37,506 nt of DNA from a virus, in IMG/VR virus record IMGVR_UViG_3300048833_000075, positions 1 to 37,506 of that record; one strand, 5' to 3'. Of the stretch, positions 380-23,992 are shown piece after piece. How positions within the stretch are numbered: the first letter of the stretch is position 1; each line of letters starts with the position of its first letter. Position numbers and translations under genes: made by a program. The notes under the pieces are model-generated. The model saw only the letters and a program-made list of their open reading frames with translations, was not told the DNA's origin and searched no databases.

Positions 380-736
380 TCAGTACCACGCGAATGATAT
401 ACCCTGCTCACGCATACGGTTGAGCGTCTCGACCTCGTAGGCGACCGCCGCCTCATAAGAGTCGAAACAGATCAGGTGCGTGCTTTTGAGGGGAGAGCGG
501 TTGCGCTTGTCACGATACTCGCCGTAGACCGCTTTGTGCGTATCCTCGGTGTGCATCTGGTCGGCGTACGGCCCAATGCACCATTTGATGTAGTAGAGCG
601 GCTTGTCCTTGACCTTGCAGATTTCGGTGACCCGCTCCATGGAACCGTTGTGTCCGAAGACATCCATGAGTTTGGGGTTGCGCGTGAATTCTGCGGCTCC
701 GTCCGCATGGACGGTAATGACGTGACGTTCAGGCAT
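380..736 (-). CDS. Hypothetical protein (118 aa)
   Basis: The ATG at 736 (MPERHVITVHADGAAEFTRN) has GGAG about seven bases upstream. The sequence starts with a beta hairpin, continues GSMERVTEICKVKDKPLYYI and KWCIGPYADQMHTED, and ends with a helix (SYEAAVAYEVETLNRMREQG). Two cysteines and several histidines are visible, but no known motif. The stop is one base before the next ATG. Confidence 0.6.
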   Translation of the reverse strand: MPERHVITVHADGAAEFTRNPKLMDVFGHNGSMERVTEICKVKDKPLYYIKWCIGPYADQMHTEDTHKAVYGEYRDKRNRSPLKSTHLICFDSYEAAVAYEVETLNRMREQGISFAWY

Positions 737-1691: not shown

Positions 1692-2083
1692 GGTTGCCCC
1701 TTTTCGTATTTGGTTACGCGCTGCACCATGCAGACACGGTACAGCATGGGTGACGTGAGAGTGTCAACCACAATATACTCGATTCCAAGGTGCACGACAA
1801 TATCTGGCCGTTCCCGTGTGTTGGGTATCTGCACCCGATGCAGCACCGAACGCATATCCTCGTCCATGAGATTCACATCGACCCATGGAATACTGTTGTT
1901 GACCTGCCACCGATTTTGCCGCGTAACGTTGTTCACGCGATGGCCGTCAGGGGATATGCCGACAAGTCGGCGCTGCCCCCTTTGGGGCAACGCTCCTTCG
2001 CTTTCACGACGCCGGGAATGAAAGACGGCGGCTCTCTGCCCTTCGGCTTCGATGTCTTTCTGACGGTCGTATTCGTCGGTCAT
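1688..2083 (-). CDS. Hypothetical protein (131 aa)
   Basis: Coupled to its neighbours on both sides (TGATG upstream, ATGA downstream). The first 45 residues are highly charged (MTDEYDRQKDIEAEGQRAAV, RRRESEGALPQRGQRR), then a beta-rich domain follows (NSIPWVDVNLMDEDMRSVLH, RPDIVVHLGIEYIVVDTLTS, MLYRVCMVQRVTKYEKG). I do not recognise it. Coupling suggests that it belongs to the same transcript as the ATPase module. Confidence 0.6.
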   Translation of the reverse strand: MTDEYDRQKDIEAEGQRAAVFHSRRRESEGALPQRGQRRLVGISPDGHRVNNVTRQNRWQVNNSIPWVDVNLMDEDMRSVLHRVQIPNTRERPDIVVHLGIEYIVVDTLTSPMLYRVCMVQRVTKYEKGQP

Positions 2084-2277
2084 CAGTAGTTGACCCGTTC
2101 GCCCATGTCGGGCGCGGGGCCGCAGTCGCCCACCGCAACACGCGCACGGGCAACGCCCGCAAACATTGCCTCAAACGGTGCCGTGGCATCCTGACAGGTG
2201 CCGCCGACATACCCTTCGGCTTCGATCTTGGTGGTGCCGTCCGGCTGGACGTGCATGAGAATACGCTTTTCAGCCAT
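2083..2277 (-). CDS. DUF2997-like protein (64 aa)
   Basis: The ATG at 2277 follows GAGG. The sequence MAEKRILMHVQPDGTTKIEA, EGYVGGTCQDATAPFEAMF fits DUF2997: a beta hairpin with P-D-G-T turn, then the GF.G..C..A motif and a helix. Family members are short and often beside DUF1257 or AAA+ genes. Ending of the gene (ARVAVGDCGPAPDMGERVNY) is longer than the minimal family. The TGA overlaps the next start (TGATG). Confidence 0.7.
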   Translation of the reverse strand: MAEKRILMHVQPDGTTKIEAEGYVGGTCQDATAPFEAMFAGVARARVAVGDCGPAPDMGERVNY

Positions 2278-2291
2278 GATGTGTTCCTCGG

Positions 2292-2534
2292 TTAAAGGGG
2301 TTTGCGGCGACGGTCGCCAATCGCTTCGCTGTAGAGGTTGTGCACCTCATCAACGCCGACGATCACGCCGTTTTCGATGCGCTTGGCAAGATCGGTGATC
2401 CGTTTCTGCAACGCCACGGCTTCCTGTTCGCTTTGCTTAGCGTACAAGAGCGCATTGGCAAGATTCTGCAAATCGGACTCGACCTTGGTATCGCGGGTTT
2501 TACCCACGATTTCTTCGAAGGATTTCGCTGCCAT
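2292..2534 (-). CDS. Small helical protein (80 aa)
   Basis: Start at 2534 (MAAKSFEEIVGKTRDTK) with AAGAGG seven bases upstream; an ATG at 2567 has no such site. The sequence is almost entirely helical and charged (LANALLYAKQSEQEAVALQK, RITDLAKRIENGVIVGVDEV), with a heptad-like pattern. The end is basic (GDRRRKPL). It sits between DUF1257 and DUF2997 genes, so it may be a partner or adaptor of this module. No known domain seen. Confidence 0.65.
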   Translation of the reverse strand: MAAKSFEEIVGKTRDTKVESDLQNLANALLYAKQSEQEAVALQKRITDLAKRIENGVIVGVDEVHNLYSEAIGDRRRKPL

Positions 2535-2582
2535 GTGGCATCCTCTTGGAATGAGTGTTGGTAGCAAGCGACGGGTGCCGCT

Positions 2583-2596
2583 TGCAATCGATTGTA
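2583..2596. repeat. 14-bp palindrome copy 2, intergenic
   Basis: TGCAATCGATTGTA on the plus strand, three bases after the TGA of the DUF1257 gene and about 50 bases before the next ATG. Confidence 0.9.
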
Positions 2597-2599
2597 GGA

Positions 2600-3028
2600 T
2601 CAGGACGCGGCGACGAGTTCCAGCGTGACCGTGCCCTTGTCCCCGGCGAGGCGGCGCGACGTGTAGCCCATTTGCGCGGCCTGATATTCGGCTTCGCGCA
2701 GGGTGTATTCCTGCAACAGCTTGCCGAGCGGCTGGTTGTACGCCTGCTTGTTCGCGTAGTAGTCGGGCAGACCGTAGGGGTCAGCGACGAGCGTGTACGC
2801 GCCGTCCTTCTGCCTGACGAGGCCGATCCCGTAATTGCGGTTGATCCGCCCATCGCCTCCGGTGTGTTCGATGGCGGCGTCACACTTGTTCGGCTGGCCG
2901 GGGTAGGTAACAAACGTCGTGGCATTGACGTTCAGCTTGCCCGCCCCTTTCGAAAGCTCGTGGGCGATCTGGCCGAGAAGGGTGAGGTTGCGGATGCGAA
3001 CCTTGTCCATGATGATGTTGTGCGACAT
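2600..3028 (-). CDS. DUF1257/Ycf35-like protein (142 aa)
   Basis: I choose ATG 3028 (MSHNIIMDKVRIRNLTLL). The pattern fits DUF1257, the family of algal Ycf35: MSH start, strand, IRNLTLLGQIAHELSKGAGK, CDAAIEHTGGDGRINRNYGI, GLVRQKDGAYTLVADPYGLP, then the helix GKLLQEYTLREAEYQAAQMG and a final strand (GTVTLELVAAS). Function of the family is unknown, but its genes often stand with AAA+ or DUF2997 genes. It lies in the same cluster here. The stop is followed by a palindrome copy. Confidence 0.75.
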   Translation of the reverse strand: MSHNIIMDKVRIRNLTLLGQIAHELSKGAGKLNVNATTFVTYPGQPNKCDAAIEHTGGDGRINRNYGIGLVRQKDGAYTLVADPYGLPDYYANKQAYNQPLGKLLQEYTLREAEYQAAQMGYTSRRLAGDKGTVTLELVAAS

Positions 3029-3064
3029 GTTATGCGATGCTCCGTTGCATGTTAACGCGGTTGC

Positions 3065-3093
3065 AGAATAGCGCATTGGTCTTGCTGTAGCAA
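3065..3093 (-). promoter_or_regulatory. sigma70-type promoter before the DUF1257 gene
   Basis: TTGCTA (3088-3093), 17 bases, TATTCT (3065-3070) on the minus strand. The start point would be near 3058, about 30 bases before the DUF1257 ATG. A small TCTTGC/GCAAGA stem overlaps the -35. Confidence 0.55.
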
Positions 3094-3100
3094 GGCAAGA

Positions 3101-3772
3101 TTACCTTGTCACGATGTTCCGAACCCGACGAATGCGCCCTGCGCCGAGTTTGGAGGGAGTCTTGTTGACGATGACCTTGGACGTTTTGCCGCCTTCGAGT
3201 TGCTGGTAGTTGAAGACCTGATCCTCTGCCTCGTAATACGGGTCAAGGATGTCCTGCAATGCGGCGTCTGACGGAACAGAAAGATGTTTGCGCCACGTGA
3301 GTTGATGGCGCTGCGGTAGCTGTTCTTCGTCGGTGACAAGGTGGAACCTGCCCTCGAAATGCACTGTAGGCACAGCCGCAAGGTGGTGCGGCGGCAATTC
3401 AACGCTGATGCGCCATAGCGGCGCGTTCGGGTCCACGACCAAGAGCAGGTATTCGTAGTTGGGTATCAGACCGCCGCTCTGATCGTAGTGATCGTACTCG
3501 ACGAGGATTTCGGTCATCGGCGCGACCTCATAGCGGCTTTCCCACCACTTGCCCGCATCCGTGGGCGAGAACTGTTCCGTCGCTGGCATATCGCGCACAA
3601 TGCTGGTATCGCCGTAGCCCGCGATCTTGCGCTGATACGCGACGTACATAGGGATGATTTCGAAACCCTTTTCGCTGTTGATCAGCGTCCAGAGCTTGAT
3701 TTCGCAGTTGCGACGCAGGGAATTACCCTGACGCCGCAGACTGTCCTTTCCATGGCTTAGCTGCACGTACAT
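3101..3772 (-). CDS. Hypothetical protein of the ATPase module (223 aa)
   Basis: The ATG at 3772 overlaps the ATPase stop (TAATG). The sequence opens MYVQLSHGKDSLRRQGNSLR and includes KLWTLINSEKGFEIIPMYVA, EILVEYDHYDQSGGLIPNYE and YLLLVVDPNAPLWRISVELP, a mixed alpha/beta pattern with several strands. The C-terminus is basic (KLGAGRIRRVRNIVTR). I do not recognise the family. Tight coupling suggests that it works with the ATPase, perhaps as substrate or adaptor. A promoter lies just after its stop. Confidence 0.65.
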   Translation of the reverse strand: MYVQLSHGKDSLRRQGNSLRRNCEIKLWTLINSEKGFEIIPMYVAYQRKIAGYGDTSIVRDMPATEQFSPTDAGKWWESRYEVAPMTEILVEYDHYDQSGGLIPNYEYLLLVVDPNAPLWRISVELPPHHLAAVPTVHFEGRFHLVTDEEQLPQRHQLTWRKHLSVPSDAALQDILDPYYEAEDQVFNYQQLEGGKTSKVIVNKTPSKLGAGRIRRVRNIVTR

Positions 3773-5523
3773 TACGGGGTTACCTTTCGAGTGACCTTGA
3801 TTTTGCGGCGAGGCGTGGCCGATCCTGCAATCGATTGTTGCACGTCCGAACTCGCAAGTCGAGCGTTTTGCAGCGCCCATTGCCGCATTTCATCGAAGTC
3901 CTTGGCCCGTGTGATGTACATGGGTTTGATGCTTGCGACGGCATCATCGATGTGGTGCGGGTGAAGCCCCGGCTCATCGTCGGATAGCGACATGACGAGC
4001 GCGTCTTCGATGATTGCCTCGATTTCAGAACCGACGAAATTCTCGGTCCTGTCGATGAGGGTCTGTACGAAGTCGTCAGGCGCATCGTGCCCGCGCTTGC
4101 GCGCATGGATTTTCACGATTTGCGCGCGTTCGGTGACGTTCGGCACGTTGACCGACCATACCTCATCCACGCGGCCCTTGCGGAGCAATTCCGGGGGCAG
4201 GCCACCGATACGGTTGGCGGTCATGATGAGAAAGATGGGACGGTTGATCTGGTCCCTCTCTTGCATCCACGTAAGGAACGTACCAAACACGCGGCTGGTG
4301 GTGCCGCCGTCCGTATTCGATCCACCGAGCATCCCGGCGAAACCCTTGTCGATTTCATCCAGCATCAGTACGACAGGAGACATAGCGTCGAGCATTGCCA
4401 GCACCCCGCGCATTGCGGCCTCGGATTGCCCGATGTAAGCGCCGAAAACGCGGCCAATGTCGAAGCGGATCACGGGCAAATTGAGAATGGACCCAGCCGC
4501 CTTGGCAAGCATGGATTTCCCCGTGCCGGGTGGGCCGACAACGAGTGCGCCGCGCGAAGGTGTGACGCCGAACGTAAGCGCCTCGGGCCTGTAGGTAGCT
4601 GCCCGTTGCCGCATCCATTGTTTGAAGAGGTCGAGACCACCGATCTGATCCTCTGCAACGGTCGGCTGCAATTCGAGAACGTTCGTCTTGCGAAGCATGC
4701 TGGTCTTGTATTCCCGCAGCATGTCAACGATGTGTTGCGCAGTGATCGGCGGGAACGTCATTACGTCCGCTTCTTCGGCTTCGCTGCGTTCGATGTCGTA
4801 CTTGGTGATCGACAGAGCAAGTGCGGTTTCAAAATCGTGTTCCGTCATGCCCGCGCCGTTCGCGAGAATGGCATCACGCTCCGCATCACTCAATACGCGA
4901 ACCTCACGACCACCGACGCGCTTCCTTTCGCTGCCCGGTCGGTTTTCCGGCTCCTGCGAATCGAGCACCGCATCAAGAACCTCGTTGAGTTCATCGCGGG
5001 TCGGATAGTCCATCGTGACGATGTATGCGATGGCGCTGATGTCATCGGGTATCGCCGCCGTAACAGGCACGATGAAGAACAACCGCTGTTTGATCGTTAG
5101 CGACCGCTGCGCTTGCTTTCGGATCATGTTGCGCATCGCAGATGTCTCGAAGACGTGGTAGGCGTCCAGCATGACGAAAACGCCGTTGTCAGGCGTCGTC
5201 TCGCTTTCATTCCCGAGCGCCATGATAGCGCGCACGTTATCGGCGGTGTTGACATCGTAGGTGGACGGCTTGAGCGCATCAAATACGCCGTCGCCGTCGC
5301 CAAGCGCAGATGATCGATAGGTAGCCCAACCGTGTTCCGTAGTATGGAGGCGGAAGGGAGCGCCGATGGACTCCGCGTGGCTGTAGATTTCGTCAACGAT
5401 CTTGTAGACCTCGGTGGGCTGGCACCGAACGATCATGACACCGATGGAAGCGTTTGCCGCGATAGTGATTTCGCGCAGCAATTTCTCGCGCGCCGATGTC
5501 GGCGGCGCTGTGTGAATTGTCAT
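3772..5523 (-). CDS. Ycf46-like AAA+ ATPase (583 aa)
   Basis: Start at 5523 (MTIHTAPPTSAREK) with GGAG upstream; a longer frame would run through the palindrome. The N-terminal half contains VFVMLDAYHVFETSAMRNMI and RLFFIVPVTAAIPDDISAIA, the domain that precedes the AAA core in Ycf46 proteins. The core has LVVGPPGTGKSMLAKAAGS (Walker A), VFGAYIGQSEAAMRGVL, VVLMLDEIDKGFAG (Walker B), SRVFGTFLTWMQERDQ, and LPPELLRKGRVDEVWSVNVP with arginine residues. All catalytic elements are intact. It probably remodels or unfolds a partner using ATP; the substrate is unknown. It begins its own transcription unit and is coupled to the next gene by TAATG. Confidence 0.85.
   Translation of the reverse strand: MTIHTAPPTSAREKLLREITIAANASIGVMIVRCQPTEVYKIVDEIYSHAESIGAPFRLHTTEHGWATYRSSALGDGDGVFDALKPSTYDVNTADNVRAIMALGNESETTPDNGVFVMLDAYHVFETSAMRNMIRKQAQRSLTIKQRLFFIVPVTAAIPDDISAIAYIVTMDYPTRDELNEVLDAVLDSQEPENRPGSERKRVGGREVRVLSDAERDAILANGAGMTEHDFETALALSITKYDIERSEAEEADVMTFPPITAQHIVDMLREYKTSMLRKTNVLELQPTVAEDQIGGLDLFKQWMRQRAATYRPEALTFGVTPSRGALVVGPPGTGKSMLAKAAGSILNLPVIRFDIGRVFGAYIGQSEAAMRGVLAMLDAMSPVVLMLDEIDKGFAGMLGGSNTDGGTTSRVFGTFLTWMQERDQINRPIFLIMTANRIGGLPPELLRKGRVDEVWSVNVPNVTERAQIVKIHARKRGHDAPDDFVQTLIDRTENFVGSEIEAIIEDALVMSLSDDEPGLHPHHIDDAVASIKPMYITRAKDFDEMRQWALQNARLASSDVQQSIAGSATPRRKIKVTRKVTP
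3826..3839. repeat. 14-bp palindrome copy 3, near 3' end of ATPase gene
   Basis: TGCAATCGATTGTT on the plus strand, core exact; encodes Q-Q-S-I-A about 20 codons before the stop and about 55 bases upstream of the next start. Confidence 0.8.
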
Positions 5524-5535
5524 GGGTTGCTCCGT

Positions 5536-5549
5536 TGCAATCGATTGTA
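5536..5549. repeat. 14-bp palindrome copy 4, upstream of the ATPase gene
   Basis: TGCAATCGATTGTA on the plus strand, ending one base before the ACGGAG ribosome binding stretch of the ATPase gene. Confidence 0.9.
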
Positions 5550-5597: not shown

Positions 5598-5631
5598 AAA
5601 AAACGCGGCCAGCCTTGAGGGGCCGACCGCG
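5598..5631 (-). terminator. Rho-independent terminator
   Basis: An 11-bp stem (5604-5614 with 5621-5631, two G-U pairs) with a six-base loop is followed on the transcript by six U (5598-5603). This is the clearest intrinsic terminator in the window. Confidence 0.85.
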
Positions 5632-5742: not shown

Positions 5743-5788
5743 CCCCCTCGCAGCCGGGAGGAAAGGGAGGATCAAAGCTGCGAGGGGG
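5743..5788 (-). terminator. 12-bp stem terminator-like hairpin
   Basis: CCCCCTCGCAGC (5743-5754) pairs perfectly with GCTGCGAGGGGG (5777-5788). The transcript continues TTAACTTCTTG, a moderately U-rich tail. It should end or strongly reduce late transcription. Confidence 0.7.
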
Positions 5789-7179: not shown

Positions 7180-8721
7180 TCAAGTAGATTTGGGCAGAGG
7201 TAGAGTCGGCGGCGTATAGTTGCCACCGCCGTAGCGCGCAACACCCTTGGTAATACGTACCGCCTTGATTTGCCCGTTAGCTGCGCCGGAAGAGCCAGTG
7301 CCGCTTACGGAACGACCAATACCCAAAAATATATTGTTCACGCCCGGATCAAAAATAGCGCCGCTGATACTGGCTGTACGAACAAGTACTCCATCCACAT
7401 AAAAATACAGGTTGGACCCCTGACGTTCAATACATAGATCGTATTCTGTGGCAGAGTCTAGGGTGCTACTACCTATAAAAGCAGTAAGATTACCACAGGA
7501 CTCAGTTACAACAGAAGCATCAAGACCGTCAGTGGACCACTGCAAACCAAAGGAGTTGGAGTTACCTAGCGTTACAAAACGCCAACCTCTTTCTCCGTCT
7601 GTTGTTTGATAGTTGGCTACCATTGTGCGGGTAGCGGCTATAGATCCTCTCCATTTGAATACTTCGATTGTGAAATCCCCTGAGTCAAAATTCCATACGT
7701 TAGAAGCAGCATTTCTTGCCACGTAACCTAGCGTATTGGGGTCAGACTGAAACCTATCATTAATCCATTGATCCTGTGTGAGATTGTACGGGCGGAACGC
7801 ATCCTCTACGCCTGATTGATTGCCGTAATACTTGCAACCCCATTCTCCCTCGAAATCTAATAGAAGCGCGACGTTTGCAAAGTCTGGATCGTCAGTCACA
7901 TTGCGCCCAAAGATAGTAGTGGGCGGCGTAAAAGATGCACCCGTGTAGCGGGGTACGCCTATTGTCAGGCGAAACTCATCCATCCAGCACTCTAGGCCGT
8001 TATCTGGATCATTATCAACGTTGGAGTTACAGCTTGCGCCAATAAGGATGTTGTAGTCGTTTGCGTTGGTATTTACCCATACCGGGTTGGTACTGATGTT
8101 TCCGGTGACAGACCCACGCAAACCGTCAACGTACACGTCGATGTTGGCACCGTGACGCCGAACTGCGATATGATGAAAATTTCCATCCCACATGGTAGCA
8201 GGGCTAACGCCATCGGTATCAAGATCGAAGCTGGCTGTGACTACGCCTGTGCCTGTTCCGTTAATTGAAATTTCAACGAATACAACGTTAGTGGTCGGGT
8301 TATACCCGATGCGCATGTGTCTCTTGTTCGAAAGCGTTTGCCATGCCCCGTACCAGTACCCGGTGGGTGAAGGTTCCGAATTTGCTGCGGTCCAGAACTC
8401 AATGCACCAATCGCTTGTTCCAAAATCTATAGTATTGCCGCGCGGACCTGCGATGTACCCTTCGCCGCCTTCGTGGCAACGCATGGACCGTGTTCCAAAC
8501 TTGAACTTGCTGGTATCCCAGCGAACTTGCTCGTTGTATATAGGTGCAGCGTCTCTGCCACGAATCTCAAGTGTCTTTGGCGTGCCGCTCAAATCCTTTG
8601 GCGACCAGAATTCCTGAATCAGAAGAACATTAGCGTAAAGTGCATCCCCGGTCGGCGGCGGTGGTCCCCCGCCAGCGGCCATAGCAGAGGCCAGAATACC
8701 GATCAGAGGGGTGATACTCAT
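7180..8721 (-). CDS. Adhesin with two LamG-like domains (513 aa)
   Basis: Starts in ATGA overlap with the previous gene. A short hydrophobic opening (LIGILASAMAAGGGPPPPTG) is followed by two tandem concanavalin/LamG-like domains. The first (about residues 30-275) has RSMRCHEGGEGYIAGPRG, DWCIEFWTA, NFHHIAVRRHGANIDVYVDG and WMDEFRLTIGVPRYTG. The second (285-510) has FTIEVFKWRG, YDLCIERQGSNLYFYVDG and IKAVRITKGVARYGG. Both end with the same R-Y-x-G and P-P-T strand. Such domains bind host glycans or proteins and are common in phage tail fibres. The gene is visibly richer in A and T than its neighbours, suggesting separate acquisition. Confidence 0.75.
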   Translation of the reverse strand: MSITPLIGILASAMAAGGGPPPPTGDALYANVLLIQEFWSPKDLSGTPKTLEIRGRDAAPIYNEQVRWDTSKFKFGTRSMRCHEGGEGYIAGPRGNTIDFGTSDWCIEFWTAANSEPSPTGYWYGAWQTLSNKRHMRIGYNPTTNVVFVEISINGTGTGVVTASFDLDTDGVSPATMWDGNFHHIAVRRHGANIDVYVDGLRGSVTGNISTNPVWVNTNANDYNILIGASCNSNVDNDPDNGLECWMDEFRLTIGVPRYTGASFTPPTTIFGRNVTDDPDFANVALLLDFEGEWGCKYYGNQSGVEDAFRPYNLTQDQWINDRFQSDPNTLGYVARNAASNVWNFDSGDFTIEVFKWRGSIAATRTMVANYQTTDGERGWRFVTLGNSNSFGLQWSTDGLDASVVTESCGNLTAFIGSSTLDSATEYDLCIERQGSNLYFYVDGVLVRTASISGAIFDPGVNNIFLGIGRSVSGTGSSGAANGQIKAVRITKGVARYGGGNYTPPTLPLPKST

Positions 8722-18439: not shown

Positions 18440-21400
18440 TCAGGTGTTACGCTTTGCCTTGTCAAGCTGACGAGCAAGCATCTTTGCGTGTTGCGAAGCC
18501 GAGCGGCGGAACCCATTCGGGCTATTGCCACCACCCATGACATACGTGACACGCAGATTGATGCTGTCCCCTTGACTGTTGTTGGAGTTTACCATGCTGC
18601 CGCTGAAACTTCCACCACCGACATAGCCGCCGTCCGAGTACCCCGGCATCATGCCGTTGTTGATCATTTCCAGAAGCGGACGCCAACGGTCGGTTTGCTT
18701 TTTCTTGACGACGAACTCGCCGCCATGGACGACACCCGCGATTTCGTCAGGGTCGATATTGCCAGTGTAACCACCATCGTCAAAGAGGTTGCCGAGGAAG
18801 CCGAACAAGCCGCCCATACCCCCGCCGAGACCGCCAATGCTACCAAGTCCACCGACCGCAGTAACAGGGGAGTAGGTAACGCCTGCGCCAGACGCGACCT
18901 GTTGCGCCATCGCCTGCATGGATTGGATAAACTGGTTGAAAACATTGGCTAGGTTGGTTCCAAAGTCGTTGACCGCGCTTGTAATCGATTGCACGGCTTG
19001 GTCCAGACCGGGGACGCCACCCCCTAGCAAGTCCTGCCCGACACCGCCAACGGCAGGTTGAGTCGAACCACCCATAAGTGGCGAAAGGTACTGGTTGGGG
19101 TCACCCGTAAGTTGCCCATTATACGGCAAGGTAGTTTGCATGCCGCCGCCGTACTGCGCGTAAATCCTGTCAGCTTCCGACATCCGGCGCGCGTAGTTGG
19201 CGTGCGCCGGGTCAGGGCGTTCGTACTGCCGAGCAATGATGTCAGCCGCCTCGCTTGCATCGGTTACGCCTTCCAGCGCCCGAGCAACGCCCGCTTCCGT
19301 GGTTTGCAGTTCATGCACGAAGAAGTCAAGCTGCGTACCAATGTCGCCAAACGCGGCCCCGGCCTCCGTAGCAAATTGTTGATAGTCCTGCATGCGGCTA
19401 GCGTGCCACTGTGCAAGCCCGAAAGAGGTTCCATTGTCCCCGAGGGCGTTCGGGTCAAGGCCGCTCTCTTGGATGAAGTTGCCGACCGCACCAGCCGCAA
19501 CAGGTGCGCTAAGACCCCGCTCCATGAGTGCTTGGAAAATCTGCTGTTCGCCCGCGATGCCTTCCTGCAACGCCGTTGCGGCAGTCTGCATGAGTTGTTG
19601 ACCCGAATTCTGGAACGCCATTCCAAATTCGCCGTCAAGCTGGAAGTGCGGGCCGTCGAAGAACGACTGCCACTCACCGCCCCACGTAAGTTGGTCCTGA
19701 TAGCCAAGCTGACCAGCCGCTTGCTCAACATACCCGGCAAGTTCAGTGTAGGCTTCCGGCGACCAGTTGGCCGATCCGTCTGCGTTCATGATGACGACAT
19801 CCGCCGCCATACCCGTCAGGTGGCGGGAGTTCATTGTTTGCGAAGCGCCACGGGCAACAAGTTCACGCTGTTCCTCGACAGTGCGCAGACCGTCCGTAAT
19901 CTCGAAATCGATGCCAGACATTTGCTTGGCGAGGGCGAGAATTTCGACAAGTCGGGAATCAACGCCAGTCAGGTGTTCGACGCTGCGTTGGCTGAACAAC
20001 TCTACCGACTGAATAGCCGCACCAAGGCCGGGAACAATCGAGTTGACCGCCCCTGTGGCGCTGTTCATCGCACCACCAAGGAAATCCGCAGTGCCCTGTG
20101 TGCCACTGCCTGTCGGAATATTACCGCCAAGCGCGTTTACTGTGGTGTTGAACGCCGTCGCCAGACCGTTTGTAAAGTTGGTCAGTACAGCTTCGGTGCG
20201 CGTAAGGGCATCGCGGTAAACCTGTTCGGTTACAACCGATACCTCCGTCAGCGTGTTCTGCAATGGGTCGAGAAGTTCGTTCTGCGCCTGCTGCCCACCG
20301 AACGCACTAGAGAGACCGGGGAACAGTCGGCCAAGAAGACCCCCGACTCCCATGCCGGGAAGCCCCTCGCCGCCACGGCGGGAAGGTTGCAGCGCGTTGC
20401 CGAAGATGGAACCGCCGCCGCCAGTGGCAGAGGAAATAGTTTGCTGCACAAGCGCCTTGGTGAACCCCTCGAAAATCTGCCGGGAAATGTCCAGCATATT
20501 TTTCTTAAAGTTATCCCACATATTTTCGGTGTCATAGATGAAATCACCGATGCCAGTGGAAAGAGTATCGATCAAGCCGCTGGTGGCATTCTCCGTAATG
20601 TCGATGATGCCGACAAGCTCTTTCTGGTATTCCGCGAACGCGCGGGCGATACCTGCGCCAACACTGGTGAAAGTGTCGTTGGCTTCGAAGGCCACGTCCG
20701 TGAGGTCGCGGCGGAAAAGCTCAAGCGCCGCAGAGCGGCGTTCCATTTGCGCGGTGAAGCTGTCGGCGGCGTCTATTTCAGCTTGCTTAAGGGCTTCGAT
20801 CTGGTTGATGAGCGCGTCGTACTCGGTAGCAAGTTCGCGCAGCTTGATGGGATCGCCCGCAAACTCTCGCGCAAGGTCTTCGAATTCCCTTTGCAGTTCG
20901 CGAATCTGCTGATCGTAACCCGCTACAATCGATTGCAAGTCCAGATCGAAGGTATCCTCGATACGGCTTGTCAGGCTAACGCCGCGCAGGGTTTCGAGAT
21001 ACGACCGCCGTACCTCGTCGGACGTTCTGGCGAGTTGCAGGAACGCATCCTCTACGGCACGGGCTTCGGCGCGGGCACGTTCAGCGAGACGCTGCTGTTC
21101 CTTGAGGGCTTGTTCCTGCTCACGACGCAGCCGCTCATTCTCACGACGAAGTTCGTCGGCGCGGCGAAGCTCTGCCTGCCGCTGTGCCTCAATCGAGTCC
21201 CCGACATCGCCAAGACCAAGCAGGGCCGCGTTGGAAATACGATCAGACGCGGCGGCGAACGATCTGCGAAGTTCGGCTTCCTGTTCCGCCGTGATGTTCC
21301 CTGCCGCCACAAGCGCGACGACATATGCCTCAAAGACTTGCTTGTACTTTGCCTGCTCACGATCAATGATTTCCTGAGCTTCATCGACCGAGGTACTGGC

Positions 21401-23992
21401 GTTGATTTGATCATTGATGGCTTTGATCAGGGCAGAACCGTCAACGACCTCGCCAAGCGAAGGATTTCTGGCAAAATCAATACCAGTGCCCTTGAGAGCT
21501 TCTTCGAAGAATACATCGATGCCTTCCCTTGTATCGATGTTAAAGTCAACGAGAATTTCACCGAATTTGACCGCGAGGTCTTTCGAAATATCCTCAAGGT
21601 CAAGTTCAAGTTGCGCAAGTCCCGCTTCGTTGGCGAGACGAATACCCTCTGCCAAGTTTTCCGTGCGCCCAAGCTCCTGCTCAAGTACGCGGATACGAAG
21701 TTCTTCGGCCTGCCGCGCCTGTGAATCTGCGAGACCGGAGAGAGCGTTAAGCAGTTCGAAGTTTTTCTGGTCTTCCGCAACACGAAGAAGTGCAGTGGTT
21801 CTTTCCGCAGAGAATCCAGCCTGCAAAAGCAGTTCTTCAAAGATAGCGCGGACAGCTTCCTGTTCGCTTGCGTCGGAGTTTGCGATACGGTCACCGAGTT
21901 CTTCAATGAATTGCGTGGGAAGGTCGCCAGTTTCTTTCCAGCGATCTTGCAACGCCGCCAACGCTAGCGCGTATTCCTCGTTAGGTTCGATGAGACCTTG
22001 TTGCAGTCCGGTAACATAATCGACAAGCGCCTGTTGCCGTGCTTCTGCCAGAACAGCGACGTTTTCGTCGGCAACCCGCACGGCTTCTTCGAGTTCTTCC
22101 ATGCGCTTGATAGCTGCGGCAAAGGCACCGCGTTCCTCCGCGCTGTAATCGGCAAAGAACCTGTTGATAGCGTTCTGCTGATCCTCTGCCCGTGCGCCGG
22201 GGTTGTTCCCAAGCAGGCGCATGACAAAGTTGCCATCGTTAGCATCTTGAATTGCGGCATCGGTTGCCCGCTTCAATTCAAGATATTCGGCGCGCATTTC
22301 CTCGAAATTTTCGAATTCATTATTGAGGGCATCCATGGCCCCTTGCGCAAGGTTCTTGTCAGCTTCATTGCTTCCCGCACGACGCCCGGTGAAGCTGAAA
22401 ACGTCGAGCGCACTCGCGCCCATGCCTCTCAGAACGTCAAGCTCGGTCCTGACGTTATCAACGCGGCGGCGAACCTCTTCCGCTGTGCCGCGACCAATCA
22501 GGCGATCTGCCACGGCATCAGCATCCGCCGTGGCCTGTCGAACATCCTCTGCGCCGAAGCTGGTTGCGACGATGTTGGAAAGACGCTCTGCGCCGTCGCG
22601 GACATCCTCAATTCCAAGAGCGAGTCGGGTAAGCTCGACAAGGGCGAGACCTGCCCCGTAGCCAAGTGCGGCAAACGGAATGGCACGAATGGACCGCGCG
22701 AAAAGCAACGCGGCACTGTTGGCAACGCCGAACTGCAATGCGACCGCGCCAAGCGCAGCACCTACCCCTTGGAACGCGAGTACGGCAAGATTGAATACCT
22801 TGATGAGACCGCCCATGCTTGCGGAGAGACCAGTACCGATAAGTGCACGGTAGGCGAGTTGCAGTGCGCCAGCGGCGGCTGTAATCGCAACAAGCCCAAC
22901 GCCAAGCTGCCCGAACAGCACAATCATGTCCTTGGTGCCTTGATCAAGGTTTTGGTAGGCATCAAGAAGGTTGTTCACCTGATCGACAAATTTCAGCACT
23001 AAGGGAGCGAGTACCGCCCCAAACTGCTTGGCAATATCGGTGAGACGGTTCTGAAACAGTTTCAGTTGACCGTCAAACGTACTCAGGTTGGCGACCGCGA
23101 GTTCAAGTGCCTTGTCTGTTCCGGTGACGGCATTCAGCAATCGCTCATAGGCATCCTCGCCAGTGACGCCAACGTCTTCGAGGGCCGCGATAAACGCCTT
23201 GACGCCAGCAAGAGCTTCTGTCTCGAAAATACGCGCAAGCTGTGCGTCGTTAAGGTCGGATTGCGCGATGTCTCGCAAGATGTCTGCGAGGTTTCGAAAT
23301 TCACCCGTAGCTGTTCTGGTGGCGATACCTGCTTCTCGCAGCAAGGTGCCAGCTTCACCAAGAGGACGGACAAGGCGAATAATGATGTTACGGAGGGCCG
23401 TACCAGCTTGTTCGCCACGCAGACCCACGTTGAACAGAACGGAAAGAGCCGCCGTGGTCTCTTCGATGGAAAGACCTGCGAGGCGCGCAACCGGGGCCAC
23501 CTGACGGAAGGCGTAGGCCAATTTATCGATACTGGCGAGCGAAGCTGTGATAGACGCAGTAAGGACGTTCGCCACGCGGTACGTATCCGTAACTTCTAGC
23601 CCAAACGCACGGATGTTGGAGGCGATAAGGTCTGACGCAACCGCCACGTCAGCCATGGTGGCTTGGGCGAGAAGAAGAACGCCCGTCATACCTGCAATCG
23701 ATTGTTCGGCGGTGAAACCCGCCTGCGCTAGGTTACGAAGGGCCGAGACAGCTTCAAGTGCGGATGTGGTGGTGGAAAGCGAGAATTGCCTTGCCGCAGC
23801 AGCCATTCGGTTAAATGTATCGGTCGTACCACCAGCGATAGCGTTGGTCAGGGTGAGTTCCTTCTGGAATTCCCTGAACGAGTTGAGAGCAAAGCCAAAG
23901 GCCGTGGCGGAACTGGTAAGGAGGGCAAACGAAGCCGCTGCCCTCCTAAGATCGTCGCCCACTCGTCCAAAGTCAACGTCGCCCGTCGCCAT
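18440..23992 (-). CDS. Tape measure protein with M15-type peptidase and phage lysozyme domains (1850 aa)
   Basis: Starts at 23992 right after the chaperone TAA. Residues 1-330 match the TP901-type tape measure core (FSLSTTTSALEAVSALRNLA, GLSIEETTAALSVLFNVGLR). A hydrophobic stretch follows at about 340-450, then long coiled coils to about 1100. Around residues 1357-1451 lies a D-Ala/L-Ala peptidase-like M15 domain with SRHLTGMAAD and GPHFQLD; likely zinc ligands are His1391, Asp1398 and His1449. Residues about 1484-1614 resemble Phage_lysozyme2 (GAVGNFIQESGLDPNALG), candidate catalytic Glu1509. The protein sets tail length and probably opens peptidoglycan during DNA entry. It carries three palindrome copies. 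Confidence 0.85.
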   Translation of the reverse strand: MATGDVDFGRVGDDLRRAAASFALLTSSATAFGFALNSFREFQKELTLTNAIAGGTTDTFNRMAAAARQFSLSTTTSALEAVSALRNLAQAGFTAEQSIAGMTGVLLLAQATMADVAVASDLIASNIRAFGLEVTDTYRVANVLTASITASLASIDKLAYAFRQVAPVARLAGLSIEETTAALSVLFNVGLRGEQAGTALRNIIIRLVRPLGEAGTLLREAGIATRTATGEFRNLADILRDIAQSDLNDAQLARIFETEALAGVKAFIAALEDVGVTGEDAYERLLNAVTGTDKALELAVANLSTFDGQLKLFQNRLTDIAKQFGAVLAPLVLKFVDQVNNLLDAYQNLDQGTKDMIVLFGQLGVGLVAITAAAGALQLAYRALIGTGLSASMGGLIKVFNLAVLAFQGVGAALGAVALQFGVANSAALLFARSIRAIPFAALGYGAGLALVELTRLALGIEDVRDGAERLSNIVATSFGAEDVRQATADADAVADRLIGRGTAEEVRRRVDNVRTELDVLRGMGASALDVFSFTGRRAGSNEADKNLAQGAMDALNNEFENFEEMRAEYLELKRATDAAIQDANDGNFVMRLLGNNPGARAEDQQNAINRFFADYSAEERGAFAAAIKRMEELEEAVRVADENVAVLAEARQQALVDYVTGLQQGLIEPNEEYALALAALQDRWKETGDLPTQFIEELGDRIANSDASEQEAVRAIFEELLLQAGFSAERTTALLRVAEDQKNFELLNALSGLADSQARQAEELRIRVLEQELGRTENLAEGIRLANEAGLAQLELDLEDISKDLAVKFGEILVDFNIDTREGIDVFFEEALKGTGIDFARNPSLGEVVDGSALIKAINDQINASTSVDEAQEIIDREQAKYKQVFEAYVVALVAAGNITAEQEAELRRSFAAASDRISNAALLGLGDVGDSIEAQRQAELRRADELRRENERLRREQEQALKEQQRLAERARAEARAVEDAFLQLARTSDEVRRSYLETLRGVSLTSRIEDTFDLDLQSIVAGYDQQIRELQREFEDLAREFAGDPIKLRELATEYDALINQIEALKQAEIDAADSFTAQMERRSAALELFRRDLTDVAFEANDTFTSVGAGIARAFAEYQKELVGIIDITENATSGLIDTLSTGIGDFIYDTENMWDNFKKNMLDISRQIFEGFTKALVQQTISSATGGGGSIFGNALQPSRRGGEGLPGMGVGGLLGRLFPGLSSAFGGQQAQNELLDPLQNTLTEVSVVTEQVYRDALTRTEAVLTNFTNGLATAFNTTVNALGGNIPTGSGTQGTADFLGGAMNSATGAVNSIVPGLGAAIQSVELFSQRSVEHLTGVDSRLVEILALAKQMSGIDFEITDGLRTVEEQRELVARGASQTMNSRHLTGMAADVVIMNADGSANWSPEAYTELAGYVEQAAGQLGYQDQLTWGGEWQSFFDGPHFQLDGEFGMAFQNSGQQLMQTAATALQEGIAGEQQIFQALMERGLSAPVAAGAVGNFIQESGLDPNALGDNGTSFGLAQWHASRMQDYQQFATEAGAAFGDIGTQLDFFVHELQTTEAGVARALEGVTDASEAADIIARQYERPDPAHANYARRMSEADRIYAQYGGGMQTTLPYNGQLTGDPNQYLSPLMGGSTQPAVGGVGQDLLGGGVPGLDQAVQSITSAVNDFGTNLANVFNQFIQSMQAMAQQVASGAGVTYSPVTAVGGLGSIGGLGGGMGGLFGFLGNLFDDGGYTGNIDPDEIAGVVHGGEFVVKKKQTDRWRPLLEMINNGMMPGYSDGGYVGGGSFSGSMVNSNNSQGDSINLRVTYVMGGGNSPNGFRRSASQHAKMLARQLDKAKRNT
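18980..18993. repeat. 14-bp palindrome copy 12 (variant), inside tape measure gene
   Basis: TGTAATCGATTGCA on the plus strand, core TAATCGATTG; encodes V-Q-S-I-T. Still a near-perfect palindrome. Confidence 0.7.
20924..20937. repeat. 14-bp palindrome copy 13, inside tape measure gene
   Basis: TACAATCGATTGCA on the plus strand, opposite to the majority; encodes L-Q-S-I-V. Confidence 0.85.
23693..23706. repeat. 14-bp palindrome copy 14, inside tape measure gene
   Basis: TGCAATCGATTGTT on the plus strand; encodes E-Q-S-I-A. Core exact, one outer base different. Confidence 0.8.

Follow-up and report, generated by a model that had tools for sequence, protein, structure and literature searches.

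A virus fragment of 37,506 bases (hereafter the window), most of whose main genes are read from the minus strand, carries at 5523-2083 of that strand a gene module whose recurrence in many unrelated phages and bacteria marks it as a real, previously undescribed machine. The module region encodes, in order, a Ycf46-family AAA+ ATPase, a protein termed P2, a DUF1257 (Ycf35-type) protein, an 80-residue orphan, and a DUF2997 protein, and the five tightly linked open reading frames that a sequence-only reading had placed at 2083-5523 are all present there. We give about an even chance to the interpretation that it is the phage version of a widespread, uncharacterised AAA+ remodelling system, acting early or midway in infection, in which P2 would be a client or an adaptor and the DUF1257 and DUF2997 proteins would be dedicated cofactors. 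To our knowledge, Ycf35, Ycf46, and DUF2997 have no settled function, although the relatives of the motor are familiar genes of chloroplasts and cyanobacteria.

To the right of the module lie genes for the portal, protease, virion structural protein, tape measure, and tail proteins, followed by stem-loops and then by the module itself. An intrinsic terminator (5598..5631, minus strand; stem-loop 5631-5604 followed by TTTTTT; z, -4.7) stands between the module and the upstream late genes, and a second strong stem-loop with a weaker T run (5743..5788, minus strand; stem-loop 5788-5743; z, -4.6) is also located upstream, in agreement with the earlier proposal that two terminators cut the module off from the late genes. 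A scan for consensus promoters and terminators, which listed neither stem-loop and counted fewer terminators than expected from shuffled sequence, was not used. The palindromic site TGCAATCGATTGTA, present in 16 copies in the window, is found directly upstream of the ATPase ribosome-binding site (5536..5549) and directly past the DUF1257 gene (2583..2596).

The ATPase (583 residues; 3772..5523, minus strand) matches Pfam AAA (6.5e-27) and, over residues 12-577, the PHROG family phrog_8638 ('unknown function'; 2.1e-117). It contains, all encoded on the minus strand, a Walker A motif GPPGTGKS (4536-4513), a pore-loop-like YIG (4437-4429), a Walker B motif LMLDEID (around 4368-4348), and an arginine-finger region RKGR (4182-4171). 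Gly330, Gly333, Gly335, Lys336, Asp389, Glu390, Asn437 (sensor-1), Arg448, and Arg451 are invariant among nine phage homologues, which bears out the assignment as an AAA+ ATPase. The classical AAA domain is common to the FtsH, CDC48, and PAN unfoldases, but the phage ATPase has no protease domain (by Pfam) or second canonical AAA domain and scores far under every curated cut-off. Identity with the FtsH protease was rejected (75.8 bits against an NCBIfam cut-off of 600, with the match confined to the AAA domain), as was identity with the anti-phage ATPase IetA (60.3 against 510 bits; the PADLOC IetA model matches the AAA domain only).

Pfam profiles supported the AAA, DUF1257, and DUF2997 assignments, that of DUF1257 marginally. 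The DUF1257 protein (142 residues; 2600..3028, minus strand) scored 22.9 bits with PF06868 against a gathering cut-off of 22.2, and its membership is firmer through homologues. An N-terminal MSH is conserved among DUF1257 proteins, which makes 3028 (142 residues) the most probable start of the gene in place of 3010. AlphaFold2 predicted a confident β–α fold (pLDDT, 91), for which the fold search returned no significant match to a solved structure in the PDB; sequence searches of the PDB with DUF1257, DUF2997, and P2 likewise gave no match. The DUF2997 protein (64 residues; 2083..2277, minus strand) scored 29.9 bits with PF11211 (gathering cut-off, 24.1) and carries the GxxGxxC motif (2214-2194, minus strand; conserved Cys28 at 2196-2194) that is common to phage, cellular, and cyanobacterial members. 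Across 30 diverse aligned members, Gly14 and Cys28 are invariant and Gly22 and Gly25 nearly so; in a wider set, the cysteine is near-invariant overall, being kept in 91% of the phage, 95% of the cellular, and all of the cyanobacterial members. The 80-residue open reading frame between the DUF1257 and DUF2997 genes (2292..2534, minus strand) has no family match, and neither the 50,697 phage records searched nor the fetched loci contained a relative. It is an orphan insertion outside the conserved module and was rejected both as a module component and as the second substrate or adaptor candidate that had been proposed from the sequence.

By tblastn, 133 phage records contain a relative of the ATPase; Rhodobacter phages have the best match, at 44% identity. 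The order AAA, about 220-residue protein, DUF1257, DUF2997 occurs in RcKickapoo and RcMenchie, and the AAA–P2–DUF1257–DUF2997 order is kept in L338C, HJ05, JP1 (plus one small extra gene), and SM1 (plus one extra gene), as well as in IMG/VR contigs. The named siphophages are those of Rhodobacter (RcKickapoo and RcMenchie), Rhizobium (L338C), Aeromonas (HJ05), Agrobacterium (JP1), and Pseudomonas (SM1). Exactly one DUF2997 (PF11211) is present in each of the 12 P2-type or P2-branch records. Across 167 loci, which were gathered through the ATPase and hence do not give unbiased co-occurrence rates, all profile matches of DUF1257 (54/54) and DUF2997 (75/75) lie on the strand of the ATPase; iterative profiles may take in a few false DUF1257 matches, and the two weak ones that were checked (L096 and L141) are over the Pfam cut-off. 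A locus search with DUF1257 alone as the query returned none. The four-gene order in six phage lineages, with all profile matches co-oriented, indicates that the association is not due to chance and, with the related sets in bacteria, establishes the recurrent unit that the sequence-only reading had suspected.

P2 (223 residues; 3101..3772, minus strand) has no family match and is a phage-only core component of the module. Its AlphaFold2 model (pLDDT, 79) comprises a β-rich domain and a disordered basic C-terminal tail. The fold search gave no significant match in the PDB and two significant matches in BFVD, both uncharacterised phage proteins, one of which, from SM1, is an independent match. 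The relatives of P2 are 13-39% identical, with the distant ones assigned partly by position and model; they are present only in phage-type loci, and all P2 profile matches are co-oriented with the ATPase. In one alternative phage type, P2 is replaced by DUF3150, often alongside DUF1257/DUF2997, and the two never occur in one locus. In the other (Corndog type), the partner is an unrelated protein of 280 residues, and DUF2997 was detected in 1/24 (Fisher p = 7e-11, relatedness not corrected). The AAA-ATPase of a Corndog-type mycobacteriophage, Firecracker gp100, is likewise a phage member of this family, but its next gene encodes an unrelated protein of about 270 residues and no DUF1257 or DUF2997 is found there; mycobacteriophage genes beside the AAA gene were rejected as DUF1257/DUF2997 on comparison (PF11211 included). 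No similarity was detected between P2 and DUF3150 or the 280-residue protein. These three proteins thus appear to constitute an exchangeable partner, as expected for a client or an adaptor, and P2, since its conservation with the module is confined to phages, is upheld as a good candidate for either role.

In cells, the earlier statement that AAA, DUF1257, and DUF2997 genes recur together in bacteria was borne out: of 79 loci containing the motor (loci, not independent events; a 96-kb Paracoccus contig with P2 was counted as phage), 41 have DUF2997, 17 have DUF1257, and 41 have an NrdG-like radical-SAM gene. The radical-SAM gene (PF13353; just below the TIGR02491 cut-off; CxxxCxxC in all) is on the motor's strand in 41/41 loci, usually near the motor, and is associated with DUF2997 (Fisher p = 7e-9 over the 79 loci, relatedness not corrected). 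Gene orders include DUF2997–rSAM–AAA–DUF1257 in two Obscuribacterales loci and AAA–DUF1257–DUF2997–rSAM in Paenibacillus oceani. The motor and small partners of these operons of AAA, DUF2997 (with or without DUF1257), and NrdG-like radical SAM are homologous to those of the phages, which differ by having an added P2 and no radical-SAM gene (0/14 phage records). We found no description of such operons in the searched literature, and no linking of DUF1257 or DUF2997 with an AAA protein in the portions of the literature on these families available to us. This radical-SAM partner, the conserved cysteine of DUF2997, and the DUF3150 and 280-residue alternatives to P2 are observations beyond those of the sequence-only reading.

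The DUF2997 gene adjoins Ycf35 in all 30 cyanobacterial loci examined, re-finding cluster g, DUF2997–Ycf35–fed7, with a ferredoxin (PMC4284462). In cyanobacteria, the ferredoxin is in the DUF2997–Ycf35 operon and the AAA gene and a second DUF1257 are elsewhere (the second DUF1257 follows a Ycf46-like AAA gene in five genomes), whereas in the phage the AAA gene is joined by P2, and no ferredoxin is annotated alongside the module. A DUF1257-like domain precedes DUF2997 in a fusion protein of Paenibacillaceae; the domain is uncalled by Pfam and aligns over its length with DUF1257 (hhalign probability, 69.5%; E, 4e-5). This fusion and the cyanobacterial adjacency argue, on comparative grounds, that DUF1257 and DUF2997 would work together. 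By Pfam, DUF2997 was found in 2/200 Bacillota and 2/299 Pseudomonadota genomes, the seed genome included in each; one of the two non-seed genomes has the radical-SAM gene alongside, and the other has no module gene in a 3-kb stretch. Given this rarity, the linkage of DUF2997 to the module is not background.

Homology between the phage ATPase and the Ycf46 family in the broad sense reaches the N-terminal region beyond the AAA domain. Thirteen cyanobacterial Ycf46-like proteins match the phage ATPase profile, nearly all of them end to end (about 14-541 of 566 positions, about 420-480 bits), whereas the match of FtsH-size proteins is limited to about 260-507 (about 140 bits); phage P2-type and cellular ATPases are roughly 30% identical. 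The N-terminal homology and identical ATPase motifs are also the points of likeness to cyanobacterial Ycf46 (slr0374). In a 113-row tree of phage, cellular, and cyanobacterial proteins, the P2-type phage proteins form one branch (99*), including two phage rows without a detected P2, which separates them from every cellular and cyanobacterial member. Owing to this separate branch, the label 'Ycf46-like' stands for the family and falls for orthology: the phage ATPases do not group with cyanobacterial Ycf46 and are a deep branch of their own. Recent capture of the module from a host, unlikely on this tree, was rejected. The deep branch, the occurrence of the module in Rhizobium, Agrobacterium, Aeromonas, and Pseudomonas phages, and the confinement of P2 to phage-type loci also make it extremely improbable that the module is passenger cargo lately acquired from a photosynthetic host and devoid of a phage-specific role, as might be supposed from the origin of the Ycf35/Ycf46 names in cyanobacteria and plastids and from the nearest isolates, which infect photosynthetic Rhodobacter. 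Cyanobacterial Ycf46 has been tied to CO2 use (Jiang 2015, as cited in PMC7496141), a link not known for the phage ATPase, and whether red-algal plastids contain ycf35 and ycf46, along with ycf34 and pbsA, correlates with habitat (PMC5940233).

The surroundings of the module bear on its place in infection. In 14 loci of relatives, the strand of the module also carries replication genes, including a DnaB-type helicase, some 4 kb downstream, the window itself being a fragment. Because of these genes and the upstream terminators, early or middle expression is predicted from gene order. A place ahead of the replication genes counts slightly against a role in the virion. It is unlikely that the module is a virion or tail assembly chaperone, in which the ATPase with DUF1257, DUF2997, and P2 builds or disassembles a phage structural protein. 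In P2-type phages, the module does come directly past the tail/lysis genes, and in spirochaetes, for example Treponema, the motor and the radical-SAM gene, joined in four loci by DUF2997, lie within contractile-tail clusters that also hold genes of the sheath, hub, and gpV types. However, the terminators sever the module from the late genes, most other cellular motor loci have no tail genes, and the 280-residue-partner type in Firecracker has ParB-like and Ku-like genes nearby and no visible tail gene.

The early-type position is also compatible with host takeover or counter-defence, in which the motor would dismantle a host complex such as a defence or stress protein; the swapping of P2, DUF3150, and the 280-residue protein among phage types is as expected for changing targets, and MkoA-like helicases adjoin related motors in Shewanella, Vibrio, and Bacillus. 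We regard this role as doubtful, since DUF1257 and DUF2997 are deeply conserved in cells, mostly where no defence gene can be recognised, which points to a housekeeping client, and since none of P2, DUF1257, and DUF2997 has a match among the PADLOC models, the match of the ATPase to IetA being to the generic AAA domain.

Membership in the AAA+ class implies ATP-driven remodelling, and it is from this class that we infer such a role for the phage proteins. In the remodelling system favoured here, the ATPase would form a ring and pull on, unfold, or dismantle a putative client. DUF1257 and DUF2997 would act as dedicated cofactors, probably binding each other and the motor, and the conserved cysteine of DUF2997 may serve in chemistry or in metal/thiol binding. 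P2 would fill the client-specificity place, as client or adaptor. Most likely, the module works early or midway in infection on a protein complex of the host or of replication, and is not itself a part of the virion. The conserved cysteine, the cyanobacterial ferredoxin (PMC4284462), and the cellular NrdG-like radical-SAM gene suggest redox or metal chemistry, but the phages have no radical-SAM gene of their own. As a long shot, the small DUF2997 protein might carry a redox group or a radical: in cells, the neighbouring radical-SAM enzyme (NrdG/PFL-activase-like) or a ferredoxin would charge it, and the Ycf46-type motor, with DUF1257, would place it in a client or take it out. The phages would then supply the motor, the carriers, and an adaptor of their own, P2, while relying on an electron source of the host. 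If true, this would represent a previously unknown kind of system, one that loads a protein cofactor at the expense of ATP.

Altogether, the Ycf35, Ycf46, and DUF2997 families are joined in one gene set, with a radical-SAM partner added in cells, which turns an annotation puzzle into a testable one. The module is now open to study in simple phages with culturable hosts, namely Rhodobacter capsulatus, Pseudomonas aeruginosa, Rhizobium, and Agrobacterium.

A 14-bp palindrome, TRYAATCGATTRYA, recurs at 16 sites in the window (762–37256), where shuffled sequences are expected to contain none, and several of these sites lie immediately upstream of genes. The same palindrome is found in four loci of one phage clade (L001, which is RcKickapoo, L002, L008, and L009), and is absent from all others among the 235 loci searched; in the Rhodobacter phages it is likewise located upstream of the gene for the Ycf46-family AAA+ ATPase. 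The element looks like an operator/stoperator or a promoter element of this clade. Downstream of the module, a 118-aa gene (window 380–736) is conserved in the same four loci, and is possibly part of the module's operon. Within the module of RcKickapoo, an annotated HNH endonuclease gene (L001:8483–8992) lies between the genes for P2, the phage-only partner protein, and the DUF1257 protein, and its relative RcMenchie has no HNH endonuclease gene at this position. Elsewhere in the window, the tape measure protein (18440–23992; 1,850 aa) matches endolysin families over residues about 1333–1471.

Among the loci gathered through ATPase homology, L014 encodes a divergent DUF2997-like protein (8419–8619) lacking the Cys, and its C-terminal end forms a His-rich tail, HHHHHGHGGHHH, the composition of which is suggestive of metal binding. 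In contractile-tail gene clusters of spirochaetes, the Ycf46-type motor gene and an NrdG-like radical-SAM gene adjoin the baseplate hub gene, with both sheath and hub genes at L105, L117, L139, L142, L149, and L161, and the hub gene at L104, L110, L132, and L155. In Shewanella, Vibrio, Bacillus, and archaea (L134, L107, L127, L144, L154, and others), the motor-family gene is followed by a gene for a helicase of ~1,100 aa and two further genes. The Shewanella helicase matches MkoA of Mokosh, and it is possible that the motor, the helicase, and the two accompanying genes constitute a defence locus.
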